Shown here one piece after another: positions 1 through 24,977 of a stretch of 24,977 nt of DNA. Both the position numbers and the translations under genes were made by a program. The notes beneath the pieces were generated by a model. That model worked only from the letters and a program-made list of their open reading frames with translations, did not search any database and was not told the origin of the DNA. This stretch comes from a virus: positions 1 to 24,977 of the IMG/VR virus record IMGVR_UViG_3300042691_021174; one strand, given 5' to 3'. Within the stretch, counting starts at the first letter, position 1; each line of letters begins with the position of its first letter.

Positions 1-1204
1 CCAGCCATTTCCGGACGGGCTTCTCGCTCATCGTCCAGCGGCGGGCCGCGAACATCTGCAAGAAGTTCCCAGGGGGCGGAGAGGCATCGGCGGTAGCCAC
101 GGAGCCCCCGCTATCGCCTTCGACGCCGGCACCACCCGACGCTGCCTCTCCGCCCTCCTCCGCCGCAGCCTGCCATGCGCTCGCGCTGATCCCCTGCGAC
201 AGCACCGGCTTGGATGCGGCAATCGGTCCCTTGTCGTTGATGTCCCGCGACAGGATCGCGGCCCACTCGCGCTCAAACCTGTCCGCAGGCCATGCCGGCT
301 TCATGTGCGCCAGCATCCACCCCTCGGTGAGCGCCTTCGCCTCCTCCGGGGTCGCGACCTGTCCGGCCCGGAGCGCGTGGATGTAGTGCCCAGCCACGCG
401 GGAAAACTCGGACCAGCGGTTCGCGTCCGGCCCGCCGCCCTCGGTGATATCCTGCGTGAGCGCGAGCGGCGCCCGCGTGTCCGTCCCCGTCTCCGGCGTG
501 AACACCAGCAAGCCTTGCTCGTTCACGGTGGGGCGCTTGATGCGCTTCGGCTCTGGCGCCCAGGCCGGACGCTCCGCGTCCGCAATCGCGGCCAGCAGAT
601 CGTCCAGGGTGTAGCGCGTCTCCGGCTCGCACTTGACCAGCGCGACAGGACGCTTCTCGCCGCCCTTGTGGTTGGTCGTGCCGGGCACGCGGATGATTTG
701 CGGGATGCGGAAGAACGCCGCGTCACCGCCCACAAGCTCCGCCAGATGGCGGCGCGTGGCGGCGATCATGCGCGTGTCCTCGCAGGGCTCGTCCAGCAGC
801 CAATACAGGTGGCGCTTCGGGCTCGCGGTTCCGGACGACGCCACGATGATCGAGGGCGGCCCCAGGATTTCGCTCAGGTAGTGCGTGGCCTTCTCCGCCA
901 GCGCCTCGTCGTCCAGGTCAACGAGGATCGACGTGAACGCCATCACGTCATCGTCGTGCGGCGCGGTGCGGGTGACGCCGGGCGCGATGGTGCCGGGCAC
1001 CACGAACGCGCCGATGCCGTTCTCGGTCCACCGGGTCAGGTGGCCCATGGCGCGGGTCGTGTCGCACATGACGGGTTCGGAGAAGGCGCCGAACTTGTCG
1101 GTGCCCTTCTCCCCCACCCCTCGCAGGGCGATGCGCGCCCCTGGCGGCAGGAGCGCCGACAGGAACGCATGGACGCTCGGCGCGTGGATGATCGGGACGC
1201 TCAT
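1..1204 (-). CDS. Phage DNA primase, AEP/RepB-like (3' end outside window)
   Basis: The frame is open from ATG at 1204 to the window edge, giving about 401 residues without a stop, so the C-terminus is missing. Residues 93-100 read SILVDLDD, like the acidic DxD metal site of archaeo-eukaryotic-type primase-polymerases. About 25 residues later comes SSGTASPKRHLYW, then RIPQIIRVPGTTNHKG near residue 170; both are typical of phage and plasmid RepB/prim-pol proteins. The segment after about residue 330 is Gly/Ala/Glu-rich and looks like a linker. In relatives a helicase domain often follows, and I infer but cannot see one here. The start overlaps the stop of the upstream 45-aa gene (ATGA), implying translational coupling. 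It is the last visible gene of an operon that also encodes an HD phosphohydrolase and a GcrA-like protein. It probably primes phage DNA synthesis. Family assignment is fairly sure; activity is inferred. Confidence 0.8.
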   Translation of the reverse strand, partial: MSVPIIHAPSVHAFLSALLPPGARIALRGVGEKGTDKFGAFSEPVMCDTTRAMGHLTRWTENGIGAFVVPGTIAPGVTRTAPHDDDVMAFTSILVDLDDEALAEKATHYLSEILGPPSIIVASSGTASPKRHLYWLLDEPCEDTRMIAATRRHLAELVGGDAAFFRIPQIIRVPGTTNHKGGEKRPVALVKCEPETRYTLDDLLAAIADAERPAWAPEPKRIKRPTVNEQGLLVFTPETGTDTRAPLALTQDITEGGGPDANRWSEFSRVAGHYIHALRAGQVATPEEAKALTEGWMLAHMKPAWPADRFEREWAAILSRDINDKGPIAASKPVLSQGISASAWQAAAEEGGEAASGGAGVEGDSGGSVATADASPPPGNFLQMFAARRWTMSEKPVRKWL

Positions 1205-1338
1205 CGGCTCACCCATGCGGTCGCGAGGAAGGCAACGGCGCTGATGCCGATGAACCAGGGGTTCGGGCCGCTTGCGGTCGCCATCCAGGCGATGGCAAGG
1301 AGCGCGATCCCCAGGATCAAGTAGGGTATTGCGAGCAT
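1201..1338 (-). CDS. 45-aa predicted membrane protein coupled to primase
   Basis: A short ORF translates to 45 residues with two hydrophobic stretches: LILGIALLAIAWMA near the N-terminus and WFIGISAVAFLATAW near the C-terminus. The short polar turn between them contains SGPNP. This fits a small two-pass inner-membrane protein. The ATG is preceded by a CCACCACGGGA leader, a motif shared with other starts in this genome, and the stop overlaps the primase ATG as ATGA. Codon third positions are mostly G or C, as in its neighbours. I do not recognise a family. It could be a holin-like or superinfection-exclusion peptide, but its place between regulator and primase does not support either strongly. 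Confidence 0.55.
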   Translation of the reverse strand: MLAIPYLILGIALLAIAWMATASGPNPWFIGISAVAFLATAWVSR

Positions 1339-1372
1339 GTGGTGGCGTGTCCCGTGGTGGGGTTGTGGTGGG

Positions 1373-1729
1373 TTACTCGTCGTCGCTGAAAGGTGTTGCT
1401 GACCGCTGCGGTAGTTGCAGTGTGCCGTAGCCTGCCAGGGCGATAACGCGCTCCGGCGTGTCGTTGGACGGGTTCCGGTCGTTCCCTCGCCGCGACAGCA
1501 TCCCGCTCTTTTCGTGAGCGTCCGGCTGGCGCTGGCGCTTCGCGGCCCACTCCGCCTGCTTCATGAGCCAGCGGTCGCGCTTGGCGGCGCTCCGCGTGCG
1601 GTCATACACAAGCGCAGCGTGCGTCCCGCAGTAGGGCAAGGCTCCGTCCGTGGCGGCCCCGCAATAGGCGTGCGCCTCTTGCGGGTCGCCCGTGATGTAT
1701 TGGCACTCCAAGGTGGTGCGCCGCGACAT
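1373..1729 (-). CDS. GcrA-like protein lacking the N-terminal DNA-binding domain
   Basis: This 118-aa protein starts directly with a Cys/His pattern: C9, a GDP motif at 14-16, C23-G, then YCGTH at 33-37 (C34, H37). It matches the C-terminal region of the GcrA cell-cycle regulator family, the part that contacts sigma-70 in Caulobacter. The usual N-terminal helix-turn-helix of GcrA is absent, and the upstream gene ends only four bases before this ATG, so no longer version exists here. Residues 46-80 are strongly basic and could contact nucleic acid. GcrA normally activates promoters carrying CcrM-methylated GANTC. A version with only the sigma-binding part might redirect or compete with host GcrA, which is inference. 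It lies in the operon with HD phosphohydrolase and primase. Family call is good; mechanism is unknown. Confidence 0.75.
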   Translation of the reverse strand: MSRRTTLECQYITGDPQEAHAYCGAATDGALPYCGTHAALVYDRTRSAAKRDRWLMKQAEWAAKRQRQPDAHEKSGMLSRRGNDRNPSNDTPERVIALAGYGTLQLPQRSATPFSDDE

Positions 1730-1733
1730 GGAG

Positions 1734-3525: not shown

Positions 3526-3531
3526 CGAGCA

Positions 3532-5153: not shown

Positions 5154-5156
5154 GGA

Positions 5157-5498: not shown

Positions 5499-5499
5499 G

Positions 5500-5896: not shown

Positions 5897-5907
5897 ATGC
5901 TGGACGA

Positions 5908-6753
5908 TTATTTCATCCAGGCCGGAAGCGCAGGGCCTTTGGGCGGGTTCTTCGGCGCCTCGCCGGCCCAGCATCGGTCCTGGAAGGAACAGAACCGGCA
6001 TTGCCATGCGTCCTTGTCCTTCCCCAGCCGGGGGAGGGTGTCCACGGACGGCGCGGTGATGACGGTCACGCCGCGATCGGAGGCGGTCTGCGCGGCCTCG
6101 ATATCGAGCGTCAGCACGTCCGCCCAAATCTCGCATGTGTCCTGGTCCTCCGCCGTGAACAGAGCGCGAGGGATGTCCAGGTAGGCCATGTAAAGGTTGA
6201 TCTGCGCGTAGTAGAGCGGCTTGGAGCCCTTGAGCCCCTTGTTTTTGAGGTCTTGGAAGGACCGATGCTTGAGCCCCTTGTTCTCCCAAAGCATCGGGAA
6301 CTCTAAGCCGTCCGCCCAAGTCCAGCCGTCCGGCGCCCACTGAGCTTCATAGGTCGGGCTCCACCCCCGAATGATCCCGTCCGCGTGGCCCTGGATGCGC
6401 GCCTTGCCTGTCTCCGGGTCTTTGGCGGCGTAGAACCCCCACTGTCCGCCGTCCGGCTTCTCCGTCCGCAAGTCGAACCCGGCGGCCCGAAGATACCCCG
6501 CCATGCGGGCTTCTGCGTCGTGGCCGCGCTGGAACACCCGCAGGATTTCGGGCGAGGGCTCACGCCCTGGGTCGGCCGGCGCCCCCTCATACTCGTAGCG
6601 CAGGCGCCGAAGGCACTCCTCCCCCAACAGGGACGCGCCCAGGTAGTCCCGCCTGCCCTGCTGCTCCCGCTGCGCTGCCTGCGCCGCGCCGATCAGGGTC
6701 GAGAGCGCGTGCGAGACACGCTCCGTCTGCGTCGCCTGGGCAAAGTCGATCAT
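5908..6753 (-). CDS. Cas4/RecB-like PD-(D/E)XK nuclease with Fe-S cysteines
   Basis: The 281-aa protein shows the nuclease core in order: H78 region, GHADGII with D125, MLWENKG with E157 and K159, and YYAQINLYMAYL with Q184 (the QxxxY motif). Four cysteines bracket the core: C47, then C252, C255 and C261 in QCRFCSFQDRCW. This is the spacing of Cas4/AddB-type iron-sulfur nucleases. It should be an exonuclease that trims DNA ends to give single strands, working with the SSB-like protein, ATPase and helicase encoded upstream. There is no CRISPR array or other cas gene in the window, so this is a phage recombination enzyme rather than a CRISPR adaptation protein. It starts inside the stop of the 67-aa gene (ATGA) and is the last gene of the early operon. 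Confidence 0.85.
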   Translation of the reverse strand: MIDFAQATQTERVSHALSTLIGAAQAAQREQQGRRDYLGASLLGEECLRRLRYEYEGAPADPGREPSPEILRVFQRGHDAEARMAGYLRAAGFDLRTEKPDGGQWGFYAAKDPETGKARIQGHADGIIRGWSPTYEAQWAPDGWTWADGLEFPMLWENKGLKHRSFQDLKNKGLKGSKPLYYAQINLYMAYLDIPRALFTAEDQDTCEIWADVLTLDIEAAQTASDRGVTVITAPSVDTLPRLGKDKDAWQCRFCSFQDRCWAGEAPKNPPKGPALPAWMK

Positions 6754-11119: not shown

Positions 11120-12022
11120 TTAGGCCGCCGCCGGAGCGGCGGGGGTCGCGATGGAGGAGGAGAGGGTCGCGTCGTGGCGAGGCGCCGTCCGCATCTTGCG
11201 GACAAGCTCGCCCAGGTTCGGGGGCTCGATCGTGTCGAGGTTCCCGCTGCGGTTTTTCGCCAACAGGCCCCACGGGTTCGCATCGCACACCAGCGCGCGG
11301 CGGGTGCCGCCGATCATGTTGTGCGTGATGCCGCCGTCGCCCACGTCGAAGCGGGAGAGCGTCAGAACGGTATCGAAGATACCCGGCAGCGCGCGGCCCG
11401 TGGACGATCCCACGATCTGCGGCTGATAGGTGATGCGCCCCAGGTCGTCCTTGTCCTCGTCCATGATGCCGACGACGATCACGCTGTAGGGCGCATGTTG
11501 TAGGACGGTGAGCCACTTGGTCATTTCGCGACCCAGCAGCCCGTAGGCGCCGCGAGTGTCCGGCTTGCCCGTCTTCTCGGAGAACGCCTCCGGCTGCATC
11601 TGGCACCACTCGAAAGCCCACCGGCTCGCGACGGTGATGCTGTCCATGAACAGCGTGTCCACACCCTTGAACAGCGCCGCCGGGTCGCCCAACGCGCCCT
11701 TGTATTGCTCGTAGGCCGCCGCGCTGTAGGGGCCGGACGTGTCGGCAGGATCGGGGCCGGCGAGCAGCGACGCGATGGCGCGACACATGACCCACGGATG
11801 CTGACCGAGCGACGCGGCGGCGCCGCGAAGGTCCACCACGCGCCCGCGCCAATCGCCCAGCGCCAGCGTCCCAGCTTCGCCGTCCAGGAACAGCGTCGTG
11901 TCCGGGTCCAGCGTGCGCGCCAGGGTCGTCTTGCCAACGCCGGACGGGCCGAACACGGCAATGTTGATCTTTGGTTTGCGAGCAAGGCGCTCGTCAGCCG
12001 TGATGATGCGAAGGCCGCTCAT
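11120..12022 (-). CDS. RecA-fold ATPase, Sak4-like recombination protein
   Basis: The product of 300 aa has a Walker A at FGPSGVGKTTL (24-34) and a Walker B-like VDTLFMDSITV near residues 107-117. FLDGEAG precedes an ATPase core with the sequence style of phage AAA_24/Sak4 proteins. These resemble a shortened RecA/Rad51 core and support single-strand annealing or recombination together with SSB. The start at 12022 is preferred because it overlaps the Cro-like stop (ATGA); upstream in-frame sequence is His/Arg-rich and not protein-like. The C-terminal 60 residues are low in complexity, ending in Pro/Ala. With the SSB-like protein, helicase and Cas4-like nuclease it completes a recombination module. 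Confidence 0.8.
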   Translation of the reverse strand: MSGLRIITADERLARKPKINIAVFGPSGVGKTTLARTLDPDTTLFLDGEAGTLALGDWRGRVVDLRGAAASLGQHPWVMCRAIASLLAGPDPADTSGPYSAAAYEQYKGALGDPAALFKGVDTLFMDSITVASRWAFEWCQMQPEAFSEKTGKPDTRGAYGLLGREMTKWLTVLQHAPYSVIVVGIMDEDKDDLGRITYQPQIVGSSTGRALPGIFDTVLTLSRFDVGDGGITHNMIGGTRRALVCDANPWGLLAKNRSGNLDTIEPPNLGELVRKMRTAPRHDATLSSSIATPAAPAAA

Positions 12023-12288
12023 GCCGCGACTTTCTCCTCTCGGATATGCTGATGGAGGCGATACCGGATCGCGCGACGGCGGCGCAGCGCGTCCAGCGCC
12101 AGCAGCCCCGTCAATGTGATGCGGTCGCGCTCGATCCACTTGGCGATTGCGTCCGTGGTGAGGCCGAGGATGCGATGCTCCTCCGCCAGCGCCACGATCT
12201 TTGCCGTGCCGCCAAGGGAGCGGATCAGGTCCGCCGCCTTGAGCCGCACGCGAAGCCGTGGCGCCTCTTTCTCTCTTGTGGTGGTCAT
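12019..12288 (-). CDS. Cro-like small helix-turn-helix protein
   Basis: From ATG at 12288 the product has 89 aa, starting MTTTREKEAPRLRVRLKAAD. An HTH-like block follows (LIRSLGGTAKIVALAEEHRI then LTTDAIAKWIERDRIT), with the usual G-GT-A pattern and a W-x-x-R recognition helix as in Cro/YdaS-like proteins. The C-terminus is basic (RRRRAIRYRLHQHIREEK). It is the first gene of the early operon and faces the repressor gene, the position of Cro in lambdoid phages. It probably competes for the palindrome at 12400-12412. AGGGA lies three bases before the ATG within the CCACCAC leader. Longer in-frame starts exist (for example 12357), but their sequence is Thr/Pro-rich. Confidence 0.7.
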   Translation of the reverse strand: MTTTREKEAPRLRVRLKAADLIRSLGGTAKIVALAEEHRILGLTTDAIAKWIERDRITLTGLLALDALRRRRAIRYRLHQHIREEKVAA

Positions 12289-12465
12289 GGTTCCCTGTGG
12301 TGGTGTGGTGGTCGTTGTCGGGTTTGCCGCCCGACACTCCGGAGTGTAGTCCGTCATTTTGTCGGAAACAATAGGCGACGTGCCGCGTTGGGCAGAATAT
12401 GTCAGCTTGACAGAGGCCACCCGCTTGTGCCCTACATTAGCGGCTCGCGCCGGAGGAACCCCACC
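12289..12465. promoter_or_regulatory. Divergent repressor/Cro control region
   Basis: This 177-base noncoding gap lies between the minus-strand early operon and the plus-strand repressor. It contains a CCACCAC leader (12289-12330), an AT-richer stretch (12355-12375) and the operator palindrome at 12400-12412. On the plus strand TTGACA (12407-12412) overlaps the palindrome and is a perfect -35, but the nearest -10-like TACATT is 20 bases away, so the repressor promoter is only tentative. GGAGGA at 12452-12457 is the ribosome site for the repressor. No clear minus-strand promoter was seen, though CATATT (12396-12401) is possible. Confidence 0.55.
12400..12412. promoter_or_regulatory. Operator-like palindrome TGTCAGCTTGACA
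   Basis: The arms TGTCA/TGACA are spaced by three bases, identical in arms and spacing to 2867-2879. The right arm forms part of a TTGACA hexamer on the repressor strand, so binding there would block or modulate repressor transcription as well as the divergent early promoter. The site is best assigned to the XRE repressor and/or the Cro-like protein. Confidence 0.65.
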
Positions 12466-12888: not shown

Positions 12889-13199
12889 AACTGCACACTC
12901 AGGCGGAGGTCGCCACCATCCTCCGCAAGAGCGCCGCGACGGTCTATCGCCTCCGGCTGGACGGCAAGCTGGGATACATCCCCGGTCGGCCCGTCCTTAT
13001 TCCGGACGACGCGCTACAGGCTTACATAAGGAGCAGCACCACATGCCCCGCGAGAACCGAGGCACACGACTTGCCGACAGGCCCAACAGTGACGGTTACT
13101 GGGAAATCACCTGGACCGAGAACGGCAGATCACGCCGCCGCTCGACGGGGACGCGCAGCCGCCGTTCGGCTGAAAAGTTCCTCGCCGCGTTCATTATAG
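12885..13199 (+). CDS. Excisionase-like HTH protein overlapping integrase
   Basis: The GTG start at 12885 overlaps the repressor stop. Residues 5-50 form a MerR/excisionase-type HTH: TQAEVATILRKSAATVYRLR, then GKLGYIPGRPVLIPDDALQAYI. This is the classic HTH_17 layout of phage Xis and related proteins. The last 50 residues overlap the integrase gene by 157 bases and are Thr/Arg/Ala-rich with poor codon bias, so the functional part is probably the first 50-55 residues. It would bend attachment-site DNA to direct excision, or regulate int. Co-transcription with a repressor gene would be unusual for a pure excisionase, so a regulatory role is also possible. Confidence 0.65.
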   Translation: MKLHTQAEVATILRKSAATVYRLRLDGKLGYIPGRPVLIPDDALQAYIRSSTTCPARTEAHDLPTGPTVTVTGKSPGPRTADHAAARRGRAAAVRLKSSSPRSL

Positions 13200-14146
13200 A
13201 GCGCGAGCGGATCGAGCAGGCCGAGGAAGGCCCGCCCGATATCGCGGCGCTCGTCTCGCTCTACGAGGACGAACACATCAGGGAGCGCGCCGTGGACGTG
13301 GAGCGCGCCCTGATGTGCGGCCAGCCCATCAAGGCGTTTTTCGGGCCGATGCTGCCCACGGACATTACGGACGCCATCCTTCTCAAGTATCGCCGCAGCC
13401 GCGCCGGTCGCTCCGACGCGACGATCCGCCGCGAGCTTGAGCATCTTCGCGCGGCGCTCAACCACGCCGTCCGGAACCGGCGCCTCCGCCTGGGCGACGT
13501 GCCGCACATCGCGCTTCCTCCGAAGGTGGAGCCCCGCAACCGCGTGCTGACGCCGGACGAAATGCGCGCGATCCTCACAACCTACGTTGAGGAGGACCGC
13601 CACGACATGATCCGCCAGGGGCGGAAGGCGGACGACGACACGCCGCTGCGCCTGTCGCGGGTCCACCGCTTCGCCGCGCTTGCCCTCCATGCGCCAGCCC
13701 GGCGCCGCGCCATCGAGACGCTGACGTGGTTTCAGGTGGACCTCGAAAAGCGCCTCATCGACTACCGGATGCCGGGGCGGCAGCGGACCAAGAAGCGGCG
13801 CGTGGCGGTCCCTATCTCGTCCGCGCTCTGGCCGATCATCGTCCGCGCCCACGCGGAGCGGAAAAGCGAATACGTCCTGGACAACCCGGGCTCGATCAAA
13901 AAGACCTTCGCGACGCTCATGCGGCAGTCCGGCGTGAAGGGTGTCACGCCGCACGTTCTGCGGCACACCTACATCACCAACGCGATCGCCAACGGCGTCC
14001 CGCCCGCGCTCGTCGCGGAGATTGTCGGGGACACCATCGAGACGATCATGCGGAACTACAAGCACCTGATGCCGCACCATCTGCGGGACGCGGTTGAGGG
14101 GGCTTGGGGGCCGGCGCAACAGCCTGCGTTACGCGCCGATCGGTGA
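13043..14146 (+). CDS. int: Tyrosine site-specific integrase
   Basis: The 367-aa protein has an N-terminal arm-binding-like piece (WEITWTENGRSRRRSTG), a core-binding helical domain (about 65-150) and a C-terminal catalytic domain. Visible catalytic elements are the arginine region LHAPARRRAIETLTW (R220-R222), a lysine hairpin TKKRRVAVPI (250-258), HVLRH (304-308, with R307) and the nucleophile Y339 in IMRNYKHL. All appear intact. AGGAG lies just upstream of the ATG. The gene ends 82 bases before a tRNA-Pro half-gene that serves as the attachment core, the standard int-attP arrangement. It should integrate the phage into a host tRNA-Pro(CGG) gene. Confidence 0.92.
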   Translation: MPRENRGTRLADRPNSDGYWEITWTENGRSRRRSTGTRSRRSAEKFLAAFIIERERIEQAEEGPPDIAALVSLYEDEHIRERAVDVERALMCGQPIKAFFGPMLPTDITDAILLKYRRSRAGRSDATIRRELEHLRAALNHAVRNRRLRLGDVPHIALPPKVEPRNRVLTPDEMRAILTTYVEEDRHDMIRQGRKADDDTPLRLSRVHRFAALALHAPARRRAIETLTWFQVDLEKRLIDYRMPGRQRTKKRRVAVPISSALWPIIVRAHAERKSEYVLDNPGSIKKTFATLMRQSGVKGVTPHVLRHTYITNAIANGVPPALVAEIVGDTIETIMRNYKHLMPHHLRDAVEGAWGPAQQPALRADR

Positions 14147-14194: not shown

Positions 14195-14214
14195 ATATGC
14201 ATCCGGAGGCATAT
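14195..14214. repeat. Small inverted repeat beside attP core
   Basis: ATATGC and GCATAT flank eight bases just upstream of the core. It could form a hairpin after int, or be a protein site used in excision. No T-run follows. Confidence 0.35.
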
Positions 14215-14227
14215 CGGCATTCCGGAC

Positions 14228-14276
14228 GCCTGTGTTCGGGACGCAGGGGCCGGAGGTTCAAATCCTCTCACTCCGA
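14228..14276 (+). other. attP core: 3' half of tRNA-Pro(CGG)
   Basis: This segment folds as the 3' half of a tRNA. An anticodon arm has stem 14230-14234 with 14242-14246 and the 7-base loop TTCGGGA, giving anticodon CGG at 14237-14239. A variable region follows, then a T-arm (GGAGG, TTCAAAT, CCTCT at 14252-14268) and an acceptor strand ending CACTCCGA. This is the pattern of bacterial tRNA-Pro. The 5' half (acceptor 5' strand and D-arm) is not present upstream and no adjacent CCA is encoded, so it is not a working tRNA gene. It is most simply the segment of identity that lets recombination restore the host tRNA. Confidence 0.85.
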
Positions 14277-14373: not shown

Positions 14374-14396
14374 CCGGCGTTATCCCGGCGTTACGC
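14374..14396. repeat. Tandem CCGGCGTTA, possible integrase arm sites
   Basis: CCGGCGTTA occurs twice with an 11-base period (14374-14382 and 14385-14393), one helical turn apart. GCGTTACGC at 14388-14396 is repeated exactly at 14126-14134 on the other side of the core, and a near-inverted copy (TTTACGCCGG) lies at 14150-14159. The layout around attP suggests arm-type binding sites; this is inference. Confidence 0.35.
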
Positions 14397-14732
14397 CCCC
14401 GCCCGCTGGGCCTCCAACTCGTCCAGCAGGCGGTCCACCGTCTGCCAGATCGGCTCCCCCGGAAGGCGCTCCCGGTTGATCCTCTCGGCGGTCATGCGGC
14501 GGACGTTGAGCGTGGCGTGGTTCGTGGCGGCGGCCCGCCGGCCGCGCATGGCGGCCATGGCAAGCTCCACGTCCCGAAGCTCGACCTTCATCCGCTCCGC
14601 GATGGCGGCGGGGCCGAGGTCTTTTCGGCGGAGGCGCCGCACGCGGCGCACCTGTCGGATGGTGAGGTCGCAGTCCGGACGCCAGCGGCGCCCGACTGCG
14701 TTCTCCTCCGGGCGGGGATCGGGGCCGATCAT
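14391..14732 (-). CDS. 113-aa basic HTH-like protein, unknown
   Basis: From ATG at 14732 (overlapping the previous stop as ATGA) the product is very basic. It contains DLTIRQVRRVRRLRRKDLGP, then AAIAERMKVELRDVELAMAAM, which resembles a helix-turn-helix of the homeodomain/resolvase type. A helical tail ends the protein. It may bind DNA. It is the last gene of the operon before the terminator. I do not recognise a family; small regulator is the likeliest reading. Confidence 0.6.
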   Translation of the reverse strand: MIGPDPRPEENAVGRRWRPDCDLTIRQVRRVRRLRRKDLGPAAIAERMKVELRDVELAMAAMRGRRAAATNHATLNVRRMTAERINRERLPGEPIWQTVDRLLDELEAQRAGA

Positions 14733-16060
14733 GCGACACCCCGCCGCGCCTGGGTCACGCCGCGCCCGGGCGCCGCGAACCGCTCGTTGTAGTAGCCCTT
14801 GACGAAATACCGGACGACTTGCGCCTCGCACCCGACGATCGCGCCCGTGGCCGGGTCTTGTTCCAGCTTGATCGTTGGGATGCCGCCGACATGCGCCTCA
14901 AGGCGGCGCTTCCGCATGAACAAGCTCTGGTCCTGCGTGCATCCGGTCTGCATCGCAAACACGTTTCGGATGTTCATGGGGCCGTGCAGCTTGTGGTAGT
15001 GCCCGTAGAGCGCGACGCCCGGCTTCTCGCCGCCGTCCAGGCTCTCGATCACCTTCTGGATGGAGTAGGAAAGCGCATAGGCGCTGCCGCCGCCGGGATG
15101 CACCACCGCCAGCACGGCGCGCTTGCCGGTGTTGGCGTTTTCCAGGATGACGTGCGCCTCCTGGTAGCCGAGGTTCACCCAATCCCAGCGATCGGCGGCG
15201 CGCATGTCCTGCTCGGCGCGGACGCCAATATCAATGCCCTCGCGCTGGGCATACCACCCTTCGTGATCGTCGCCGGTTACGGCGTAGGTCGTGATCCCTT
15301 CGCGCTTCGGGTAGTTCCGGACGAGATAGGCAAGCTGCGCGTCCATGCCGTGAACGTGCAACTCATGCCGGTTGAAGCGCGCCTCGCCGTCGATCCAGTT
15401 GCCGGTGTTCATGACGTGCTGCACACCGGCATCGTGCATCCGGTCGTAGAGGTCGTTGAGCGCGTCCAGCCGCTCGTAGCGGGAGCCCAGGTGGTTGTCC
15501 CCCACCGCCCCGAACAGAAAGCGGTTGTTGGCGTCCGACCGAAGGATGATGTGCCCGTCCTCCATGGAGAAAGCGGGCTTGAGGTCCATGGCGAGCGCGA
15601 CGTGACCGCGCCGCTTGTCGAGAATGATGTTGTAGCCCTTGGCTTGCAGGGCTTTGGCGGTCGCGACCACATCGCGGTCAGTGATCGCCAGCATCCCGGC
15701 GAGCGACGGGATATGGATGCCCTTGCGCTCCTTCCGGAGCGCCGCAAGCACCCGCTCGTCCAGCGTGCCGGCGGGCGGACGCTTCTCGCTGGGGGTGTTG
15801 TTCCTGTCCCCGGATCGCTGCGCCTTCTCGATCCCCTCGATGCTGCGGCCGGTCCAGCGGAGCGCCTGCCCGAGAAAGCTATGCCGCGATCCCGTGGGGA
15901 TTTTCAGCCGGTCGGCCGCCATGCGGTATGCCGTGGGCTCGCGCTTGTTCTCGCGCTGACGCTCATCGAGCAAATAGCCGTCGCGGACGGCGCGTTCGAT
16001 TTCGTCCAGATACTTGTTCGCGAGCTTAAGTTGTTCCTTCGTGGGGGCTCGCGTCGCCAT
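14729..16060 (-). CDS. Calcineurin-like metallophosphoesterase with N-terminal HTH region
   Basis: The 443-aa protein has the full set of metallophosphoesterase motifs: VGDNH (186-190), GNWID (220-224, in place of GDxxD), GDDHE (263-267, in place of GNHE), VVHPGGG (H321) and GHYHK (353-357). These ligate a two-metal centre that hydrolyses phosphate esters. The first 160 residues are helical, with an AGMLAITDRDVVATAKALQA block like a winged helix, which suggests it targets nucleic acid. It could be a nuclease or nucleotidase acting on DNA or RNA. It lies between virion genes and attP, coupled to both neighbours by overlaps (TAATG upstream, ATGA downstream). The substrate is unknown. Confidence 0.8.
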   Translation of the reverse strand: MATRAPTKEQLKLANKYLDEIERAVRDGYLLDERQRENKREPTAYRMAADRLKIPTGSRHSFLGQALRWTGRSIEGIEKAQRSGDRNNTPSEKRPPAGTLDERVLAALRKERKGIHIPSLAGMLAITDRDVVATAKALQAKGYNIILDKRRGHVALAMDLKPAFSMEDGHIILRSDANNRFLFGAVGDNHLGSRYERLDALNDLYDRMHDAGVQHVMNTGNWIDGEARFNRHELHVHGMDAQLAYLVRNYPKREGITTYAVTGDDHEGWYAQREGIDIGVRAEQDMRAADRWDWVNLGYQEAHVILENANTGKRAVLAVVHPGGGSAYALSYSIQKVIESLDGGEKPGVALYGHYHKLHGPMNIRNVFAMQTGCTQDQSLFMRKRRLEAHVGGIPTIKLEQDPATGAIVGCEAQVVRYFVKGYYNERFAAPGRGVTQARRGVA

Positions 16061-16530: not shown

Positions 16531-19500
16531 TTAGCGACGCTGGCGCTGCTCCGGGCCTGCCACGCCGTCAATAAAGGCGCCGCGCACCCCGCCATGGCCG
16601 GCCGCTTGCGTCAGGATCGCCGCAAGCGGGATCGGCAGGAAGGTGAGCCCCCAGTTGGCGGCGGGCTCGATGCCGGCATCCCACACCGCACGCGCGACGC
16701 GCCGCTCAGAGGCGTTCGTGTTGGGGCTATTCCGCCCCACGACGCTATCAAGGCCGGTCTGCGCGGCGCCCAGCAACAGGCCGGCGGACGGGCCGGCGAG
16801 GCTCGTTGCAAGGTCGCGCCCATAACGGACGCCCGTGACAAGGTTGAACGCTGGGTCGAACGCGCCAAGCAGGCCGGAACGCGACAGGACCAACAGGGCT
16901 TGATCGGTGCCAACCGGCTCGTCCGTAATCGGGGACCGGAAGATTGGATCGCGCGCAGCCTGCTCGCGTCGCTTGCGCTTGCTGTCTTCGCTGTCCAGAA
17001 GCTCGGAGCGCAGATAGGACACCACGATCTGCGCCGGCAGCATCGCAGCAGCAGCCATGGTCAGGTAGCTGCCCGCCATGATCGCCGCGTCCATGCGCGT
17101 CAGGTCAGGGCTCTTGGCGAGATTAAACGGCCGCGCCAGGACGTTCTTGTGGAAGGCCCAGGCAAAGTTGGACAACTGGAACGCCACGGCACCCACCGGA
17201 TGCGACGCCCAGCGCGGGCGGGTCGAGGCGTTCGGGCTCATGATGCTCTGCCACACGAACCGCTGCACCGCCCGGCGGAAAAGCTCCGCCTGCGCCTTCG
17301 GCGCCAGATGCAGCGCCGCAGCCGTCATGCCGTTGCCCGCCGATCCGCGCATCCACTGTGCGAACGCGGCCTGCTGCGCCTTCGGGATGCCAAGCTCCGC
17401 AAGCAGCACACCGGCCATGCGCTCATGGCGCGTGCCCGTCTTGCCCAGGTCGCTCGCAAGCCGGCGAAGGAAAACCTCAGCCCCGGAGACGGCAGCAACG
17501 CGCGTGCCGCGCGTCCACTGTTCCAGCCCCGTCCGGCGAAAATACACGTCGAGGACGTGGCTCTGGAAGCTGGACGTGGCATCACCGCCGGTCCACCGCG
17601 CGGCGTTGAGTGAGCCCGCATAAGCGGACGCGATCACGCCGATATCCTCCGCAAGCTCACGCAGGCGCCCGGCTTCGCCCTTGCCCTTGTGCCCGCGCAC
17701 AAGGTCATCAACCGTCCGATAGAGGCTTTCCCCGATCTTCAAGAGGTTGCCCTGTCGCACGGCGGGCATGAAGGCTTCCGCGAGCGAGGCGATGGTTGCC
17801 TTTTCCAGCATCCCCAGCGTCGTCCACATGCGGATATTCGCGGACGCGCGGACGTAGCTCCGGTTGGTGCCGGCGTATTTGGCGCCCGTGACGCTCCCGA
17901 CATAGCTCCGCACATCGTCAATGCGCGCGTCGGCGCCATCGGCGCGAAGCGCCTTCACAAGCGCATCCCAGTTGGTTTGCACCACCTTGCCGCCGGGCTG
18001 CACCTTCTGCCCGACCGCGCGAGCAAACTCCGCCCGGCGCGCGGCGGCCGTGATGTAGGTCGTCAGGACGTGCAGCGGGTCTTGATGCAGATAGTCGCGA
18101 AGGATGTTGTCCGCTTCCTTCGGCAGCGTGCGCCCGTTCACATGATCCGCCTGGATGCCGGACATGGGCGGCGACAGAACATCATCGTGCTTGCCGCCGG
18201 CCAGAATGTTGTTGAGCCACGCTTGCGCGGCTTCCTTCGGGTTCGGTTCGCCGGCCAGCCTGTAAGCCTTCTCGGCGTCGCGCAGGAACCCGGCCGAGTT
18301 ATCCCACACGGCATTGTCGTTGATGACGCGCGGCCAATACCCGTTCTTGATCTGGCCCATTTCGACGCCGGCCTGCCGCTGGTAGTCGTGAAGCTCGCGA
18401 AGGAGCTTCGTGAGGGCGAGGGCGGCGTCGCCCATTTTCGTCCCGGCGCGGATGCTGCCCGGGTTCTGCACCATGCGGGCAAGCTGCGCGAGTGCGGCCT
18501 TGTCGCGGAGAATGTCGTCCCCCAGCGCCTTGCCCAACGCCTGCATGTGGCGGTTCGTGTTGGTATTCACCAACTCGTCGTAGGCGTCGCCAGCGCCGCG
18601 AGCGTCGCCCGCTCGCGCGTGCCACTTGTCGAGGAACGTCCGCATTGCCTCGCGCGAGGCGGGCGGGAGCGTGTCCGCCATGGCGCGCATCCGCGCGTCG
18701 TCCGCATAGAGGGCCGCGCGCATGAAAGAGCCGATCGCGCGAAGCGGACGGCGGATGATCTTTGGCGACCGCTGCGGCTGCGCCGGATCGCGCGGGACGC
18801 GCGCCTCGCGGCTGGGATTGTCCATCGAGCCCTTGAGCGCGCTCGTTGCTTGATCCCATGCGTCCGTGAAGGACTTGGTGACGTAGCGCGCCGCCGGCCC
18901 CAGGACGAGGCGCCACACGGCGGGATCGAAGATGCCGCCGGAGTAGAGCTTGCCGCCCAGCCCCCGATCGCCAGTCTCGCGCATAATGTCCATCTGATCC
19001 CGCGCGCTCACGTCAAAGAGCGGCGTATCGGCATCCCCTAGCGCACGCTGCGGCACGTCGCCGTTGTTGCGCGCCTCGGCGCGGGCCTGCACCGCCTGCT
19101 TCGTGCTGGCTTCCATGCCGGGCATGACGTTCTGCCCGTCATCCTCGACGGTCTTGCGGAGCGGGTCGCGCCCGCGCGCTACTTCTCCACCCTGTTCGCC
19201 GGGGCCGCGTCCTCCTTCGGTTTCGGCGCGGCTCCCTTCTGGCTGTTGCGGAGCATCTTCTGTCGCTCGCCCAGGTCCAGCACCCGTTCGATCTTCTCCC
19301 GGAGCGCCACGCTCAGGTTCGGGTCGCGCAGCAACCTCCGGAGTTCCGCCGCGCTGCGCTCCCCCTTCTGCATCAGCGACAGCGCCTCGCCACTCTGCCT
19401 CTGCATCTTCCAGGCTCCTTGCCCCGTAGGCGTCCAGGTAATCGTCCAGGGTCCGGAGAATGTCCGGCTCCCAGGCGTCGCCCCGGGCTTCCATTTCATC

Positions 19501-21864
19501 CTGCAACGCGCGGCGGAGGTCAACAACCTCAGCCTCAAGCGCCTCGGCCTGCTGCCGGTGCATGTTGGCGGCTTCCTCCTGGGAAAGCCGCTCGCGCATC
19601 AGGTCTTCAAACTGCCCGCGCGACATGCCGCGAACCTCGTCCGGAGACAGGCCCATTTCGCGCGCCATGTCGTTCATGCGCGTCACATCGGCGTCGTAGG
19701 CTTCCTGCGCGGCGCGAAACTCCACGCCGTCCCCGTCCCGATATTGCGGACGGCCGGATCGTTCCTCGCGCAGCGCATTGAACAGGGCGCGCTCGGCATC
19801 GAGCCCCGTCAGGTTCGGGAACCACCCGTCCTGTTGAAGCCGCTCCACCATCATGTCCGGCGATAGGCCGGCCTTGTCGTTGCGGACGCCGGGCGCCATA
19901 CCTTCCAGGTCGCCGCCGCCCTTCATGCCGCCGTTCGCCTTCACCGCTGCGGTGAGCGAGGTCGGAGCCTTGGGCGGTGTGCGCGCGGCCGGTGCGTCCA
20001 GCTTCGGGTCGCCGTAGGACGGGCGATAAGGCACGTCATCCGGCGTGCCGGCGCGCTCGGCGCCTCGCCGCTGGATCGCCGCTCGGCCCCGCGCGGCTTC
20101 CGCTTCGCGCTGACGGGTCGTGATGGCGCGGTCAATCTCGGTCGCCGTCCGGTATTTGCCGGCCAGCGCCGCAAGCTCGCGGCTCGCCTTGTCGCGCGGT
20201 GCCTTCGCGCCCTTCGCGGCAAGCATGTTCGTGCCGGTGTTGCGGTCAAAGAACCGCTCGCGCGCCTGCTGTAACTGCGCCACCTGGGCATCGAGCTTCG
20301 CCGCTGCCGCCTCGGAACGCTCGGCCAGCCGGGTAAACTCGGCGGCGCGCTCGGGGGTCGTGGCGCGCGGGGGTGGGGCGCCCTCCGCCTGCGGCGCGGG
20401 TCCGGTTTCCGGACGGGGCTCGGGCGGGCGCGTGACGCTGGTGACGTTGACCTCGCGCGCACGGGGCGCGGGCGGGGTCGGGGGCTGCGGGGCCGTGGGC
20501 TGCGGAGGGGCGCCCGGCGCGCGATAGTCCGGCGATGCCGGGTTCTGCGCGCGGATGCCTGCTTCCGTCATGCGCGGCATGGACGGCGGAGGAGGCGGGT
20601 TGCCGACGACAGGCGGCGTGCCGCTCTGGTCCGGCATCCGGATCGGCTCGGGCGGCGGCAGGAGCCGCATCGTCTGATCCGGACGGAGGCGCGGCGTCGG
20701 GTCCATTGGCGCCACGGAGCGGCCGGACGGATCATCGCCAAACTGTAGCGGGTCTTGCCCGATGCGCTCGGCTTGGATTTGGTTCACGCGGGCGGCGTGC
20801 GCGATTTCCTCCGGCGTCATCCGATTGGGGATGATCGGCGGCTCAAGCGGGACTAGCGCGGTGGTGCGCTGCGGGAGCGGAAGGTCCGCCGCGAAGTCCC
20901 GGCGCGGAGCGGACGGGTCCGCCGGGTTCTGCGGGTTCCGCTCCATGAAGTCCTGGCGCAGCCGGGGCGACATAGCCTCGACCACGGGCGGCTGGCCGGG
21001 CGCGACCGCCTGCGAGCTTGGGCCGATCCGGTCGCGCTGCGCGGCAGCGAGACGGAACGCCTCGGCGGCCTGCTGGATTTCGGTGTCGGTCAGGCCGGCG
21101 GCCCGCGCCGTGTTCAGCATTTCCGGGTCGCGGAAGGCTGCGGCAAGTTCTTCCGTCGCAAGGTCATCGACGCCGCGAGGCTCGGGGGCGCCGGCCGCCA
21201 TGCGCCTCCGCGCGGCGGCAGCGACAATCAAGGACGCGACAACGGACGTGACTGCGGCGCCGCCGAAGTTGGCGCCCATGCCAATCAGGTCGCTAGCGCC
21301 GGCCTGCTGCGCGATGCCCTGCGCGCCGCCGCCCGCCGCGTTGGCGGTTACGTCGATGCCGGGGGCGTCCGCAAACGCCCTTGCGACGGTCTGGCCCGTC
21401 CCCTGCAATACGGGCGCAAGGACGCGCCCGGCGATTTGTGTCGGGGCTGCGCCAGCGGCGGCTTCACCGATCTGCCCAAGAACCTGTCCGGTTTGGCTCT
21501 GCTCGTATTGCGGGAGGCCAAGCGCGTCCGCCGCGCCTGTCGTCATGCGCTGGATTTGGCCGTAGCGGAAAGGCTCGCTCGTCCCGGGCGCGTTGCCGCG
21601 CGCCGCATCCCACGCGATGAACGGCGCATTAAGGACGGCGCCGGCTGCGTTGTTGAGCATGTCCAGGACGCCCGGAACGCCCTGCACAACCATGCGCGCC
21701 GCGCGGCCCGGGGCGTTGACGATCGCCTCCCCTGCGCCTTCCGTGGGCAGAAGCGGGCGCGGGGGTCGCGCGGCCGGCCCTCGCGGGATCAGGTCATCAA
21801 AAGCGCCCGGCTGCGACTGCTGCGGGTCGGCGCCAGGGATCAGGTCGTCAAAAAGCCCACTCAT
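16531..21864 (-). CDS. Giant virion/ejection-type protein, 1777 codons
   Basis: The N-terminus repeats FDDLIP (5-10 and 22-27), a signature of many large phage/polyvalent proteins. A Gly/Ala segment follows, which may be membrane-active, then a long Pro-rich linker (about 330-500). Next is a coiled-coil stretch (RLAERSEAAAAKLDAQVAQL), and the C-terminal 900 residues are mainly helical, with a hydrophobic piece (SYLTMAAAAMLPAQIVVSYL) near residue 1600. It follows a gp14-like and a 550-aa protein, so its position and size fit a T7 gp16-like core protein ejected with DNA into the host. I see no clear lytic transglycosylase motif. Between about 19420 and 19179 the codon bias of this frame collapses (Gly/Pro/Glu-rich), while the +1 frame is strongly coding; see the nested gene. 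The product may therefore be two genes or contain a frameshift. Confidence 0.7.
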   Translation of the reverse strand: MSGLFDDLIPGADPQQSQPGAFDDLIPRGPAARPPRPLLPTEGAGEAIVNAPGRAARMVVQGVPGVLDMLNNAAGAVLNAPFIAWDAARGNAPGTSEPFRYGQIQRMTTGAADALGLPQYEQSQTGQVLGQIGEAAAGAAPTQIAGRVLAPVLQGTGQTVARAFADAPGIDVTANAAGGGAQGIAQQAGASDLIGMGANFGGAAVTSVVASLIVAAAARRRMAAGAPEPRGVDDLATEELAAAFRDPEMLNTARAAGLTDTEIQQAAEAFRLAAAQRDRIGPSSQAVAPGQPPVVEAMSPRLRQDFMERNPQNPADPSAPRRDFAADLPLPQRTTALVPLEPPIIPNRMTPEEIAHAARVNQIQAERIGQDPLQFGDDPSGRSVAPMDPTPRLRPDQTMRLLPPPEPIRMPDQSGTPPVVGNPPPPPSMPRMTEAGIRAQNPASPDYRAPGAPPQPTAPQPPTPPAPRAREVNVTSVTRPPEPRPETGPAPQAEGAPPPRATTPERAAEFTRLAERSEAAAAKLDAQVAQLQQARERFFDRNTGTNMLAAKGAKAPRDKASRELAALAGKYRTATEIDRAITTRQREAEAARGRAAIQRRGAERAGTPDDVPYRPSYGDPKLDAPAARTPPKAPTSLTAAVKANGGMKGGGDLEGMAPGVRNDKAGLSPDMMVERLQQDGWFPNLTGLDAERALFNALREERSGRPQYRDGDGVEFRAAQEAYDADVTRMNDMAREMGLSPDEVRGMSRGQFEDLMRERLSQEEAANMHRQQAEALEAEVVDLRRALQDEMEARGDAWEPDILRTLDDYLDAYGARSLEDAEAEWRGAVADAEGGAQRGGTPEVAARPEPERGAPGEDRTGAGPGRATEDAPQQPEGSRAETEGGRGPGEQGGEVARGRDPLRKTVEDDGQNVMPGMEASTKQAVQARAEARNNGDVPQRALGDADTPLFDVSARDQMDIMRETGDRGLGGKLYSGGIFDPAVWRLVLGPAARYVTKSFTDAWDQATSALKGSMDNPSREARVPRDPAQPQRSPKIIRRPLRAIGSFMRAALYADDARMRAMADTLPPASREAMRTFLDKWHARAGDARGAGDAYDELVNTNTNRHMQALGKALGDDILRDKAALAQLARMVQNPGSIRAGTKMGDAALALTKLLRELHDYQRQAGVEMGQIKNGYWPRVINDNAVWDNSAGFLRDAEKAYRLAGEPNPKEAAQAWLNNILAGGKHDDVLSPPMSGIQADHVNGRTLPKEADNILRDYLHQDPLHVLTTYITAAARRAEFARAVGQKVQPGGKVVQTNWDALVKALRADGADARIDDVRSYVGSVTGAKYAGTNRSYVRASANIRMWTTLGMLEKATIASLAEAFMPAVRQGNLLKIGESLYRTVDDLVRGHKGKGEAGRLRELAEDIGVIASAYAGSLNAARWTGGDATSSFQSHVLDVYFRRTGLEQWTRGTRVAAVSGAEVFLRRLASDLGKTGTRHERMAGVLLAELGIPKAQQAAFAQWMRGSAGNGMTAAALHLAPKAQAELFRRAVQRFVWQSIMSPNASTRPRWASHPVGAVAFQLSNFAWAFHKNVLARPFNLAKSPDLTRMDAAIMAGSYLTMAAAAMLPAQIVVSYLRSELLDSEDSKRKRREQAARDPIFRSPITDEPVGTDQALLVLSRSGLLGAFDPAFNLVTGVRYGRDLATSLAGPSAGLLLGAAQTGLDSVVGRNSPNTNASERRVARAVWDAGIEPAANWGLTFLPIPLAAILTQAAGHGGVRGAFIDGVAGPEQRQRR
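19179..19406 (-). CDS. Nested 75-aa ORF in +1 frame of giant virion gene
   Basis: From ATG at 19406 the +1 frame encodes 75 residues, ending in TAG at 19179. The sequence is convincingly protein-like: it is helical and charged, with AAELRRLLRDPNLSVALREK, then IERVLDLGERQKMLRNSQKG. Third codon positions are about 90% G/C, as in true genes here. The overlapping long frame falls to about 40% and reads as Gly/Pro/Glu-rich. AAGGAG stands eight bases before the ATG, one of the best ribosome sites in the window. Three readings are possible: a true overlapping gene, the end of an upstream protein reached by +1 frameshifting near 19400, or an indel in the assembled sequence. Function is unknown. Confidence 0.5.
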   Translation of the reverse strand: MQRQSGEALSLMQKGERSAAELRRLLRDPNLSVALREKIERVLDLGERQKMLRNSQKGAAPKPKEDAAPANRVEK

Positions 21865-21867
21865 GCC

Positions 21868-23520
21868 TTAGAGCCCCGCCGGATCGACGCCAGCCGCCCG
21901 AAGGCGCTGGATCACTTGGTCGCGGTTCGCGCCGCGCTGGATCGCGCTGCGCGCCTGCTCAAGTAGCTCGGCCGGAGGGATGGTCTGCGTGGCCGCCGGG
22001 GGCACCACGGACGGACGCCCTGCCGGAGCCTGTGGGGCGGCGGGCACTTGCGGACGAGCCGCGCCCGCCGCCGGAGGCACCAGGGACGGCGGGAGCCCGT
22101 ATTGCGGACGCCCCGGCATCCAGCGGTGATCCGTCCGGGGGAGGGCCGAACCGTGGCGGAAATATTCCTCAACCGCCTGCTGGGCAGCGACCGCCGCAGA
22201 GCCGCCCTGCCCCGGAGAGCGTTGGCCGAAAATCTCTTGAGTGCGGCGGTTTACCCACTCCCTCGCGGCGGGGTCTAGGCTGACGGCGCCGCCCGGGCGA
22301 GAGGTCAGCACTTCGTCAATCGCGGCGCGGATTGCGCGCTCGTTTGCCTCTCCGATCGTCCGGTTCGCGCCAGCTCCACGCGCACCGGCAGCTTCCGCCC
22401 GGATGCGCGCGGCTTCCACGCGACCGATGCTGGCCTCGACTTGCGCCGCCACCCGGCTATCCGCAAGCAGGGCCGCGATTTCCTCGCGGCTGGCATTCTG
22501 CAACTCGACGCGCTCAAGCTGCCCGTCCTGCCGCATACGCTCGATTTCGATGCTGTTGTCCGCCCGGATGCGCGCCGTAAGCTGAGCGGCGCCAGCGCGG
22601 ATACCAGCAACCTCGCGCGCCGTCTGGCCGCGAACCTCTGCCGCCGCGACACCCGGCAGGATCGACGTGGCGCGGGCGCGCTGCTCGGGCGGCGTTTCCG
22701 GCGCAAGGATTTGCTGCGCGGCACGGCCCTGCTCAGTTGGGAGCGTCGGGTTGCCCTGCGTCTCGACCATCACGGGGGCCTGACCGGGGACGAGCGGACC
22801 AGGGGCCGGCGACTGCCGCACATTGCCCGGCGCGATCGTCGCGGCACCCGGCACGAAGAACGGCGCGGGCGGAGGCGCGGGCATGGGCGGACCCTGCTCG
22901 CCGGGTGCCATCTGCGGCGGCGGAGGCACCAAGTTAAGCGCCTGTGCGCGACGGCCGCCAACCACCACGCCGTCCGCGCCGGGGTTCACGTCGCCATGCA
23001 AGAACCGGAAGTTTGCGCCTTCCTGCGCGATCTGCTGGGAGCGCACCGTCGCGCCGGCCGCGATGCCGGCCCGGCGCGTGCTTTCGCCCTCGGAGAAGCG
23101 CCCGCCCGTCTCCGTGTCGCGGAGCCAGGAACCGCCCGCGCCAACCACGGCAGCGTCGCGCTCAGCCTGCGGCACAAGCGGCTGCGTGTGGACGAAGCCG
23201 CGCATGAAGGCGGGAAGGGCCGTCTGCTGGTTCGCGTCATCCTCGGCGCGCAGCGAATAGACCTGACGGTTCCATGCCGCGCGCCCCTCGGGATCGGCGG
23301 GCGGGCCGGACGCCAGAAGATCACGAAGCGCCGCCGCGTTCTGCGCGCGGCGCTGGAACCGCTGGTTCTCAAAGGATGCGCCGGTCGCCTGCTCGCGCAG
23401 AAGCCCCGCGCGGGCACGATGAACCTCGCGCTCGCCGCCCCCGAAGATGCCTTCGGCCAGGGCTTCGACACCCGCTCCGATGGCGGGGTCCGAGTAGTAG
23501 CTATTGCGGCGCGTTACCAT
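21868..23520 (-). CDS. Internal virion protein-like, 550 aa
   Basis: The 550-aa protein is rich in Ala, Gln, Arg and Pro. The N-terminal 150 residues are helical (AGVEALAEGIFGGGEREVHR). The middle is a Pro-rich linker with runs of proline, and residues of about 330-400 form a long charged helix (IEIERMRQDGQLERVELQNA). The C-terminus has a second Pro/Ala linker and ends in a short helix (VIQRLRAAGVDPAGL). Its position between the gp14-like and giant proteins corresponds to T7 gp15, an ejected core protein. Sequence identity cannot be judged without a search, so the call rests on gene order and composition. Its stop lies three bases before the ATG of the giant protein. Confidence 0.6.
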   Translation of the reverse strand: MVTRRNSYYSDPAIGAGVEALAEGIFGGGEREVHRARAGLLREQATGASFENQRFQRRAQNAAALRDLLASGPPADPEGRAAWNRQVYSLRAEDDANQQTALPAFMRGFVHTQPLVPQAERDAAVVGAGGSWLRDTETGGRFSEGESTRRAGIAAGATVRSQQIAQEGANFRFLHGDVNPGADGVVVGGRRAQALNLVPPPPQMAPGEQGPPMPAPPPAPFFVPGAATIAPGNVRQSPAPGPLVPGQAPVMVETQGNPTLPTEQGRAAQQILAPETPPEQRARATSILPGVAAAEVRGQTAREVAGIRAGAAQLTARIRADNSIEIERMRQDGQLERVELQNASREEIAALLADSRVAAQVEASIGRVEAARIRAEAAGARGAGANRTIGEANERAIRAAIDEVLTSRPGGAVSLDPAAREWVNRRTQEIFGQRSPGQGGSAAVAAQQAVEEYFRHGSALPRTDHRWMPGRPQYGLPPSLVPPAAGAARPQVPAAPQAPAGRPSVVPPAATQTIPPAELLEQARSAIQRGANRDQVIQRLRAAGVDPAGL

Positions 23521-23523
23521 ACG

Positions 23524-24252
23524 TCATCCCCAGCTTGCCGCAGCGTAGGGCTTCGCCCCAAGCGCGGTGCCTTCCGCCACGATGCTGCCCGTGGGCGAGC
23601 CGAACCAACTACCGATCGTGCCAGCATTGGAGAGCCCGGCGTTGCCCAGCGCGCTCACGCCGGAGCCGATCGCCCGGAGCCCCGCGCCCTCGTGCTGCGC
23701 GAGGTTGCGTTTCACGTCGAACGCCTGCTGCTCGACGCCGGACGCGCCGGCAGAGCCGCGCGCGAAAGAGCCATACATGCCGATGCGGTCCTGCATGGGA
23801 GCAGTCGTCTCGCCCAGGTTCACGAAGGCATCGCCCCACGATCCCAGGCGCGCACGCGCCAGAGCCTCGCGCGCCAGCTTCGCCCGCGCTTCGCCCTGCC
23901 GGTCGGAAATGACCGTCCGGACCACATCGCTCGCGCCCTGCTGGCCGCCAAGACGGTCCTGATTGGGCGTGTCCTCGGCGGTCGCGGCGGTCAGCCCCTC
24001 GGCGCGACGCGCCTCGGCCTGCCGAAGCCGCTCCTGCATCGCCTGCGGGCCGCTCTCCTGCGCGATGCGCCCGGCCTGCTCGCGGGACCGGCCGGAAATC
24101 TCGTCCTGGCGCTGCTGCTCCCGCATCGCGGCGGCGGCGGCCTGATTGGACGCCTCCTCCTGCGCGTTACGGGCCTGCTGCGCGCCCTGGTATTGCAGCG
24201 CGGCGCCGGCCACGGCGGCGACTGCGGAGACAATCGCGACGGGTTCACACAT
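23524..24252 (-). CDS. Internal virion protein, T7 gp14-like
   Basis: The 242-aa product begins MCEPVAIVSAVAAVAGAALQ. This short hydrophobic start with Cys at position 2 is widespread in gp14-type internal virion proteins of podoviruses. A long Gln/Arg/Ala-rich helix follows (YQGAQQARNAQEEASNQAAA onward), then a Gly/Ser-rich C-terminus. Such proteins are ejected first and form a channel in the host outer membrane. The gene follows a related structural gene by six bases and precedes the 550-aa gene by three, a compact late block. The family assignment is good from the N-terminus and length. Confidence 0.7.
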   Translation of the reverse strand: MCEPVAIVSAVAAVAGAALQYQGAQQARNAQEEASNQAAAAAMREQQRQDEISGRSREQAGRIAQESGPQAMQERLRQAEARRAEGLTAATAEDTPNQDRLGGQQGASDVVRTVISDRQGEARAKLAREALARARLGSWGDAFVNLGETTAPMQDRIGMYGSFARGSAGASGVEQQAFDVKRNLAQHEGAGLRAIGSGVSALGNAGLSNAGTIGSWFGSPTGSIVAEGTALGAKPYAAASWG

Positions 24253-24258
24253 GGCTCA

Positions 24259-24977
24259 TTACCTCACCACGCGGCCGGAGCCGGACGACGCGCCGTAAAG
24301 CGACGCGCCGCCCTTCGACGCGCCCTGCTGCTGGCTCTGCATGTCTCGGTATCCGCCGATCCCCGCGCCGGCCGACGCCAGCGTGTTCGCGAACAGCGTG
24401 CCCATTGGGTTGAAGGACGGCGGCGTTGACACCGCACCCACGCGCTCGCGCGCTACCGAAAGCGCGGCCTGCGGATCGTTCGATGCCGTCAGGGCGTTCA
24501 CGGCCTGCGCGCGGGCGCTGGCAACGTCGCCGCGCGCCTGCCCGATCAGGTCCGTCGCCGTCATTTCCACGCCCTGCAAGGCGCGGCCCCGTTCCAGGCC
24601 AAAGTCGCGCTGCCGGTCGCCCGCGACGGACGAGCGAGTAAGCCGCTGCCGCGCAAGCGCGAACTCCATTTCCTGCCGGGCGCGCTCGGCCTGCTCCTCC
24701 ACCTGGGGCATCGCGAAATCGCGGTATGCCTGCGCCCGCTGGTTATAGAACTGATCGTTGAAGGCCACGCCAGAAGGCGTCCAAATCCACCGCTCGGGGG
24801 CGGCCGGGGCTCCGGGTCGCGTCACGCCGCCAAAGAGCCCGCCAAGCGCGTCCCCCCCGCCGCCATACTGCCGGTTCCACTCAGCCCAAGCCGGGTTTTC
24901 GCTGCGAACCTCGCCACGGGTAAAGAGGCGGTCGATCGCCTCCATGCCTTCGTTGAACCGGGCCTGCCGTTCTTCCT
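24259..24977 (-). CDS. Virion-associated protein, 5' end outside window
   Basis: The frame is open to the right window edge; the residues before the first internal Met (EERQARFNEG) are protein-like, so the real start lies outside. The visible 239 residues contain a Gly-rich piece (QYGGGGDALGGLFGG). A long amphipathic helix follows (AERARQEMEFALARQRLTRS) and the C-terminus is Ser/Gly-rich. Composition and position just before the gp14-like gene indicate another internal or tail-associated virion protein. I do not recognise a family. The direction implies that head and tail genes lie to the right of the window. Confidence 0.6.
   Translation of the reverse strand, partial: EERQARFNEGMEAIDRLFTRGEVRSENPAWAEWNRQYGGGGDALGGLFGGVTRPGAPAAPERWIWTPSGVAFNDQFYNQRAQAYRDFAMPQVEEQAERARQEMEFALARQRLTRSSVAGDRQRDFGLERGRALQGVEMTATDLIGQARGDVASARAQAVNALTASNDPQAALSVARERVGAVSTPPSFNPMGTLFANTLASAGAGIGGYRDMQSQQQGASKGGASLYGASSGSGRVVR

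Follow-up and report, generated by a model that had tools for sequence, protein, structure and literature searches.

Absence of GANTC from a temperate soil phage and its retention in a methyltransferase-bearing sister phage

GANTC is the mark of the CcrM methyltransferase and is usually regarded as a cell-cycle signal alone. Here we describe its complete absence from 24,977 bp of phage DNA, the complete IMG/VR record IMGVR_UViG_3300042691_021174 (hereafter the window), which derives from soil and by gene content represents a large part of a temperate tailed phage genome. Restriction-site avoidance by phages and GANTC-depleted alphaproteobacterial phages are both already known. A close described case is that of the pelagiphages and the Pelagibacter NP1 prophage, for which GANTC depletion was reported in 2022 in part of the lineages (PMC9516812); restriction was proposed there as the reason, although no enzyme came to light. 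Like the window, these phages are depleted of GANTC under CcrM-bearing hosts and in some lineages only, but they belong to another phage and host group, and pelagiphage HTVC019P (L254) keeps GANTC at 6/79 (observed/expected), whereas the window is fully null. The passages of that report consulted here describe no methyltransferase contrast, while the window has an integrase, a phage attachment site (attP) and a methyltransferase-bearing sister; nor do they mention that HTVC019P also lacks GATC (0/89).

Elimination of orthodox Type II sites is likewise documented in double-stranded DNA phages, near-complete elimination being found mainly in non-temperate ones (PMC6286503), unlike the window phage, which is temperate by gene content. 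Phages of Sinorhizobium and Paracoccus carry GANTC methyltransferases that have been read as regulatory mimicry (PMC5537653); a relative (33% identity, NPPF motif) is present in two sister phages, not in the window, and we read it instead as putatively protective. Alphaproteobacterial chromosomes resemble the window in that GANTC is under-represented, especially in coding regions (PMC3973325), but they keep about 0.4 of the expected sites and the window phage keeps none. Three things are added here: GANTC is purged completely from an integrase- and attP-bearing phage of another host group, the evidence places the action of this purge on DNA, to the point of costing amino acids, and a sister phage offers the alternative of a methyltransferase gene.

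The initial annotation had reported no GANTC in the window against a random expectation of roughly 75 sites, and both statements held. A string count found GAATC, GACTC, GAGTC and GATTC 0 times each, and at 68.1% G+C an independent-base model predicts 73 sites. Markov models of order 1, 2 and 3 predict 95.8, 58.9 and 27.6, all far from zero, and no other short palindrome tested in the window is as depleted as GANTC. When synonymous codons were shuffled 2000 times within the 23 predicted genes (22.3 kb), 26.5 ± 4.2 GANTC sites appeared, with a minimum of 13, and the control motifs GATC (137 vs 134) and CANTG (34 vs 35) did not change. The absence also extends beyond the window. Sibling record G039, 100% identical over a 2,652-bp overlap, reaches 6.1 kb past base 1 and has 0 GANTC there, giving 0 in 31,067 bp against 74 expected; a second sibling record (L087, 12.2 kb) likewise contains none. 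An artefact of composition or codon usage at high G+C could appeal to the scarcity of A and T and to several A+T-rich 5-mers that are also missing from the window. Nevertheless, the order-3 and codon-shuffle nulls both yield many sites, and sister phage G004, of equal G+C, holds GANTC at 120/133, so that this explanation is ruled out for practical purposes.

Codon choice reveals the level at which the sites were lost. In one reading frame, GANTC encodes Asp or Glu followed by a TCN serine codon. Every Ser that follows Asp or Glu in the window is encoded by AGY (14/14), compared with 231 TCN to 100 AGY among the other Ser codons (Fisher P = 1e-7). Moreover, Asp/Glu-Ser dipeptides number only 14 against 39 expected (P = 4e-6), while the reversed order occurs 29 times against 39. 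Neither effect is present in G004, with 10 TCN to 10 AGY after Asp/Glu and 20 dipeptides against 22.6 expected. The remaining two frames are GANTC-free as well (0 vs 8.5 and 0 vs 10.8, in a count with one gene misframed). Because Ser codons switch to AGY after Asp/Glu, selection against GANTC is acting on DNA, through codon choice and even at an amino-acid cost.

GANTC is not the only site purged. GTAC stands at 0/34 in the window phage, and about 20 palindromes beside GANTC are absent. Among six-base palindromes with an expectation of 5–20, 16/25 are absent; for non-palindromic six-mers the figure is 37/1,609, and around half of the missing ones include GANTC or GTAC. A general avoidance of palindromes, in which a lineage-wide pressure or mutational process strips all short palindromes with GANTC among them, could produce so broad a purge, which thus weighs against a specific reading of GANTC; many relatives in the helicase clade are also strongly depleted of hexamers. 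On the other hand, several palindromes are unaffected, including GATC (178/175), CCATGG (19/15), CGATCG (24/27), GGCGCC (62/59) and TCGCGA, and TCCGGA is enriched (38/15 in the window phage, 59/20 in G004). Across the helicase relatives, GANTC loss and hexamer loss separate in both directions: L036 has GANTC at 1/45 with mild hexamer depletion, and L035 and L040 have strongly depleted hexamers with normal GANTC. This double dissociation speaks against a general anti-palindrome process, which we regard as quite unlikely. A related group (L032–L035, L049 and L050) has zero GATC (0/20 to 0/77), with GANTC near expectation in most members. Which site was erased differs between lineages, as expected if they had met different Type II enzymes. 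The purge of L010 (G010) is broader still, with GANTC 0/123, CCGCGG 0/52, GCCGGC 0/70 and CGATCG 0/18.

The likely host emerged from the attachment site. ARAGORN called a tRNA-Pro gene at 14204–14276, but only the 3′ half of a tRNA-Pro is present and the 5′ half is degenerate; we rejected the gene and re-read the site as attP, with a 47-nt core copying the 3′ half of tRNA-Pro(CGG) at 14230–14276 (+). A tyrosine integrase adjoins it at 13043–14146 (+; PF00589 2.5e-10, phrog_1 3e-45), and the presence of both an integrase and an attP matching a host tRNA identifies a temperate phage. Of 84,980 genomes, only 3 match a 42-nt attP core exactly, each within an alphaproteobacterial tRNA-Pro gene, among them that of Caldovatus aquaticus. 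Using the DEAD/ResIII-type phage helicase (8019–9698, −; phrog_16 1e-88, PF04851) as query, relatives of mostly 50–53% identity were found in 26 of 348 genomes from the order of Caldovatus, which we take to be Acetobacterales. Because the attP core and the helicase relatives converge on this order, the host probably belongs to the Alphaproteobacteria, order Acetobacterales, on what is sequence evidence rather than proof. The initial annotation had taken the avoidance itself as support for an alphaproteobacterial host; such a host is backed by the attP and the helicases, but zero GANTC alone does not prove it, and many alphaproteobacterial phages retain the site.

These genomes also bear on the proposal that phage GANTC sites were lost through CcrM methylation or GcrA binding, either by titrating CcrM or GcrA or by imposing cell-cycle promoter control, with no nuclease involved. 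CcrM is encoded by 346 of the 348 genomes, GANTC is under-represented in alphaproteobacterial chromosomes in general (PMC3973325) and lies at 0.25–0.57 of expectation in those of the host order (0.2–0.6 around related prophages; counted on individual loci), and the window encodes a GcrA-like protein. This 118-aa product (1373–1729, −) carries the Cys-rich motif of the GcrA C-terminal, sigma-interacting domain (CQYITGDP..YCG..PYCGTHAALVY; PF07750 6e-5, below cut-off; NF050816 4.5e-4) and weakly matches GcrA chain 5yix_B. Only the C-terminal motif was detected in it, with no GcrA N-terminal helix-turn-helix or DNA-binding domain, and the protein could be a putative decoy or adaptor for sigma70. 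However, GcrA acts at promoters and its binding therefore cannot explain loss from coding sequence, yet all gene interiors are emptied of sites. The host-order baseline is about 0.4 and not 0 (228/526 = 0.43), a rate that predicts about 32 sites for 31 kb. Furthermore, GTAC and some 20 palindromes unrelated to CcrM are gone too, and both the sister phage and phiCbK retain GANTC in similar hosts. A direct role of CcrM or GcrA is disfavoured, and we hold it to be unlikely, because the loss is uniform in coding sequence, common to unrelated palindromes and far beyond host bias.

Two sister phages, G004 (48.8 kb) and G006, are mutually close and both syntenic with the window. In ORF-level blastp comparisons, G004 matched the window in the helicase (56% identity), the Sak4-like AAA_24 recombinase (54%; 11120–12034, −, start codon uncertain, the ORF being listed as 11120–12337), the Cas4-domain exonuclease (48%; 5908–6753, −; phrog_1990 1e-58) and the gene at 14729–16060 (−), a synteny anchor with 54% identity to its counterpart. 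The attP is shared at 46/47 positions. G004 is purged like the window of GTAC (3/64), GGATCC (0/29), CAGCTG (0/19), CTGCAG (0/12), AGGCCT, CTCGAG and others, but retains GANTC above the host-order level. Between attP and the homologue of the anchor gene, G004 and G006 encode a 203-aa NPPF methyltransferase (L171 2000–2611 in G004) with 33% identity (E 1.4e-12) to phiLM21_p027, an enzyme shown to methylate GANTC (PMC5537653). The window has no detectable copy of this gene, and the slot holds an unrelated 113-aa ORF (14391–14732, −) with no Pfam match. The sister methyltransferase may, by this resemblance, protect GANTC sites. In line with such protection, no match to this methyltransferase was found in the GANTC-poor G000, G009, G010, G029 and G034, and 66 viral loci with members of the family have a host-like median GANTC observed/expected ratio of 0.42, none of them zero. 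Relaxed avoidance under self-modification would fit the G004/G006 pair but is not a general pattern, since phages lacking the methyltransferase can keep GANTC.

Overall, the purge is probably best explained by Type II restriction-site avoidance in a lineage exposed to enzymes that cut unmethylated GANTC. Such avoidance would leave GANTC far below composition-aware expectation, here 0 against 28–96, and selection visible on DNA, here 0 TCN to 14 AGY after Asp/Glu. The phage lineage would have met hosts cutting unmethylated GANTC, as well as GTAC and about 20 other palindromes. Selection would then have removed every site from the phage, with any new GANTC counter-selected strongly enough to dictate Ser codons and thin out Asp/Glu-Ser dipeptides. 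The sister phages would answer the same problem by modification rather than avoidance. CcrM would not be the attacker; rather, its mark would make unmethylated GANTC recognisable as foreign. A host could carry the GANTC-cutting enzyme either together with a dedicated methyltransferase or alone, the latter because CcrM methylates the resident chromosome. Temperate phages rarely eliminate restriction sites (PMC6286503), so the pressure here must be strong. Among the causes proposed in the initial annotation, strong selection is upheld, and a GANTC-cutting enzyme fits best because the purge is uniform in genes, proceeds via codon choice and accompanies some 20 unrelated palindromes; CcrM methylation and GcrA binding fare worse. 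The purge, its operation on DNA, the attachment site and the difference between the sisters in both sites and genes are observed, whereas the cutting enzyme, the specificity of the sister enzyme and the causal link between them are inferred.

Several observations weigh against restriction-site avoidance as the explanation. A search for a GANTC-cutting enzyme through second CcrM-like methyltransferases in the 348 genomes found none. A second CcrM-like match occurred in 8 genomes; at the 4 loci inspected no clear HinfI-like pair was seen, 2 lying beside DpnII (GATC) enzymes, and HinfI-type restriction-modification was set aside for these loci. Two more of the second matches resemble pieces of a CcrM gene that is split or fragmented. 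Only one pair of lineages underlies the sister contrast: with 99% identity between the methyltransferases of G004 and G006, the sister lineage counts as one evolutionary event. Members of the NPPF family occur in phages from a wide range of other hosts (487 records), and a GANTC specificity of the sister copy is therefore inferred. The GANTC-null G010 and GANTC-poor G029 have no assigned hosts. Finally, alphaproteobacterial phages without the NPPF methyltransferase keep GANTC, namely DSS3phi2 (0.91), HTVC010P (0.74), phiCbK (0.51) and SIO1 (0.43). These rule out a universal rule that phages without a methyltransferase have no GANTC; purging is not obligatory and presumably depends on exposure. 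The search for GANTC systems also turned up a DpnA-like methyltransferase beside a DpnII endonuclease at L276 (1367–3046) and L277 (1517–3191), both from small, A+T-rich genomes listed in the host order.

A variant of restriction would dispense with a dedicated methyltransferase altogether: an uncharacterised, solitary alphaproteobacterial nuclease would cut unmethylated GANTC, with CcrM as self-protection. It would account for pressure on GANTC even where the host's own DNA carries the methyl mark, for the lack of HinfI-type restriction-modification pairs in the sample and for the commonness of GANTC methyltransferases in alphaproteobacterial phages (PMC5537653). Yet no candidate nuclease was found in the genomes searched, and some alphaproteobacterial phages tolerate GANTC with no known methyltransferase, leaving this variant very improbable as the cause of the purge. 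The broader conjecture that some Acetobacterales carry an unrecognised solitary anti-GANTC nuclease partnered with CcrM, which phages escape by erasure or by a methyltransferase of their own, is a long shot, if a somewhat better one. If true, a solitary nuclease would explain why GANTC methyltransferase genes abound in alphaproteobacterial phages.

The remaining gene content is that of a tailed phage with no near DNA match among GenBank phages. Along with the integrase, helicase, recombinase and exonuclease described above, the window encodes a nucleotidase, an endolysin and virion proteins, among them a 1777-aa structural protein at 16531–21864 (−; phrog_30152 4e-17) with 35% identity to G004. 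The 5′ part of a primase/polymerase-like gene (2–1216, −) runs past the window end into sibling contig L103. At 1.7 kb past the first base of the window, L103 encodes a phage DNA methyltransferase (4342–5313 of L103) with a TSPPYYGLRDYG motif and 57% identity to one of Bordetella phage PHB04. It was considered as a CcrM and rejected, being of the TSPPYYGLRDYG type, with best matches to phage enzymes and a score far below the CcrM equivalog cut-off. From position 1 to 24977, the window is a phage genome fragment free of GANTC and also of GTAC and many 6-bp palindromes.

The occurrence of a purged phage beside a methyltransferase-bearing sister suggests that unmethylated incoming GANTC can be dangerous in these hosts. 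GANTC depletion in some alphaproteobacterial phages and methyltransferases in others would then be testable alternative answers to one defence.

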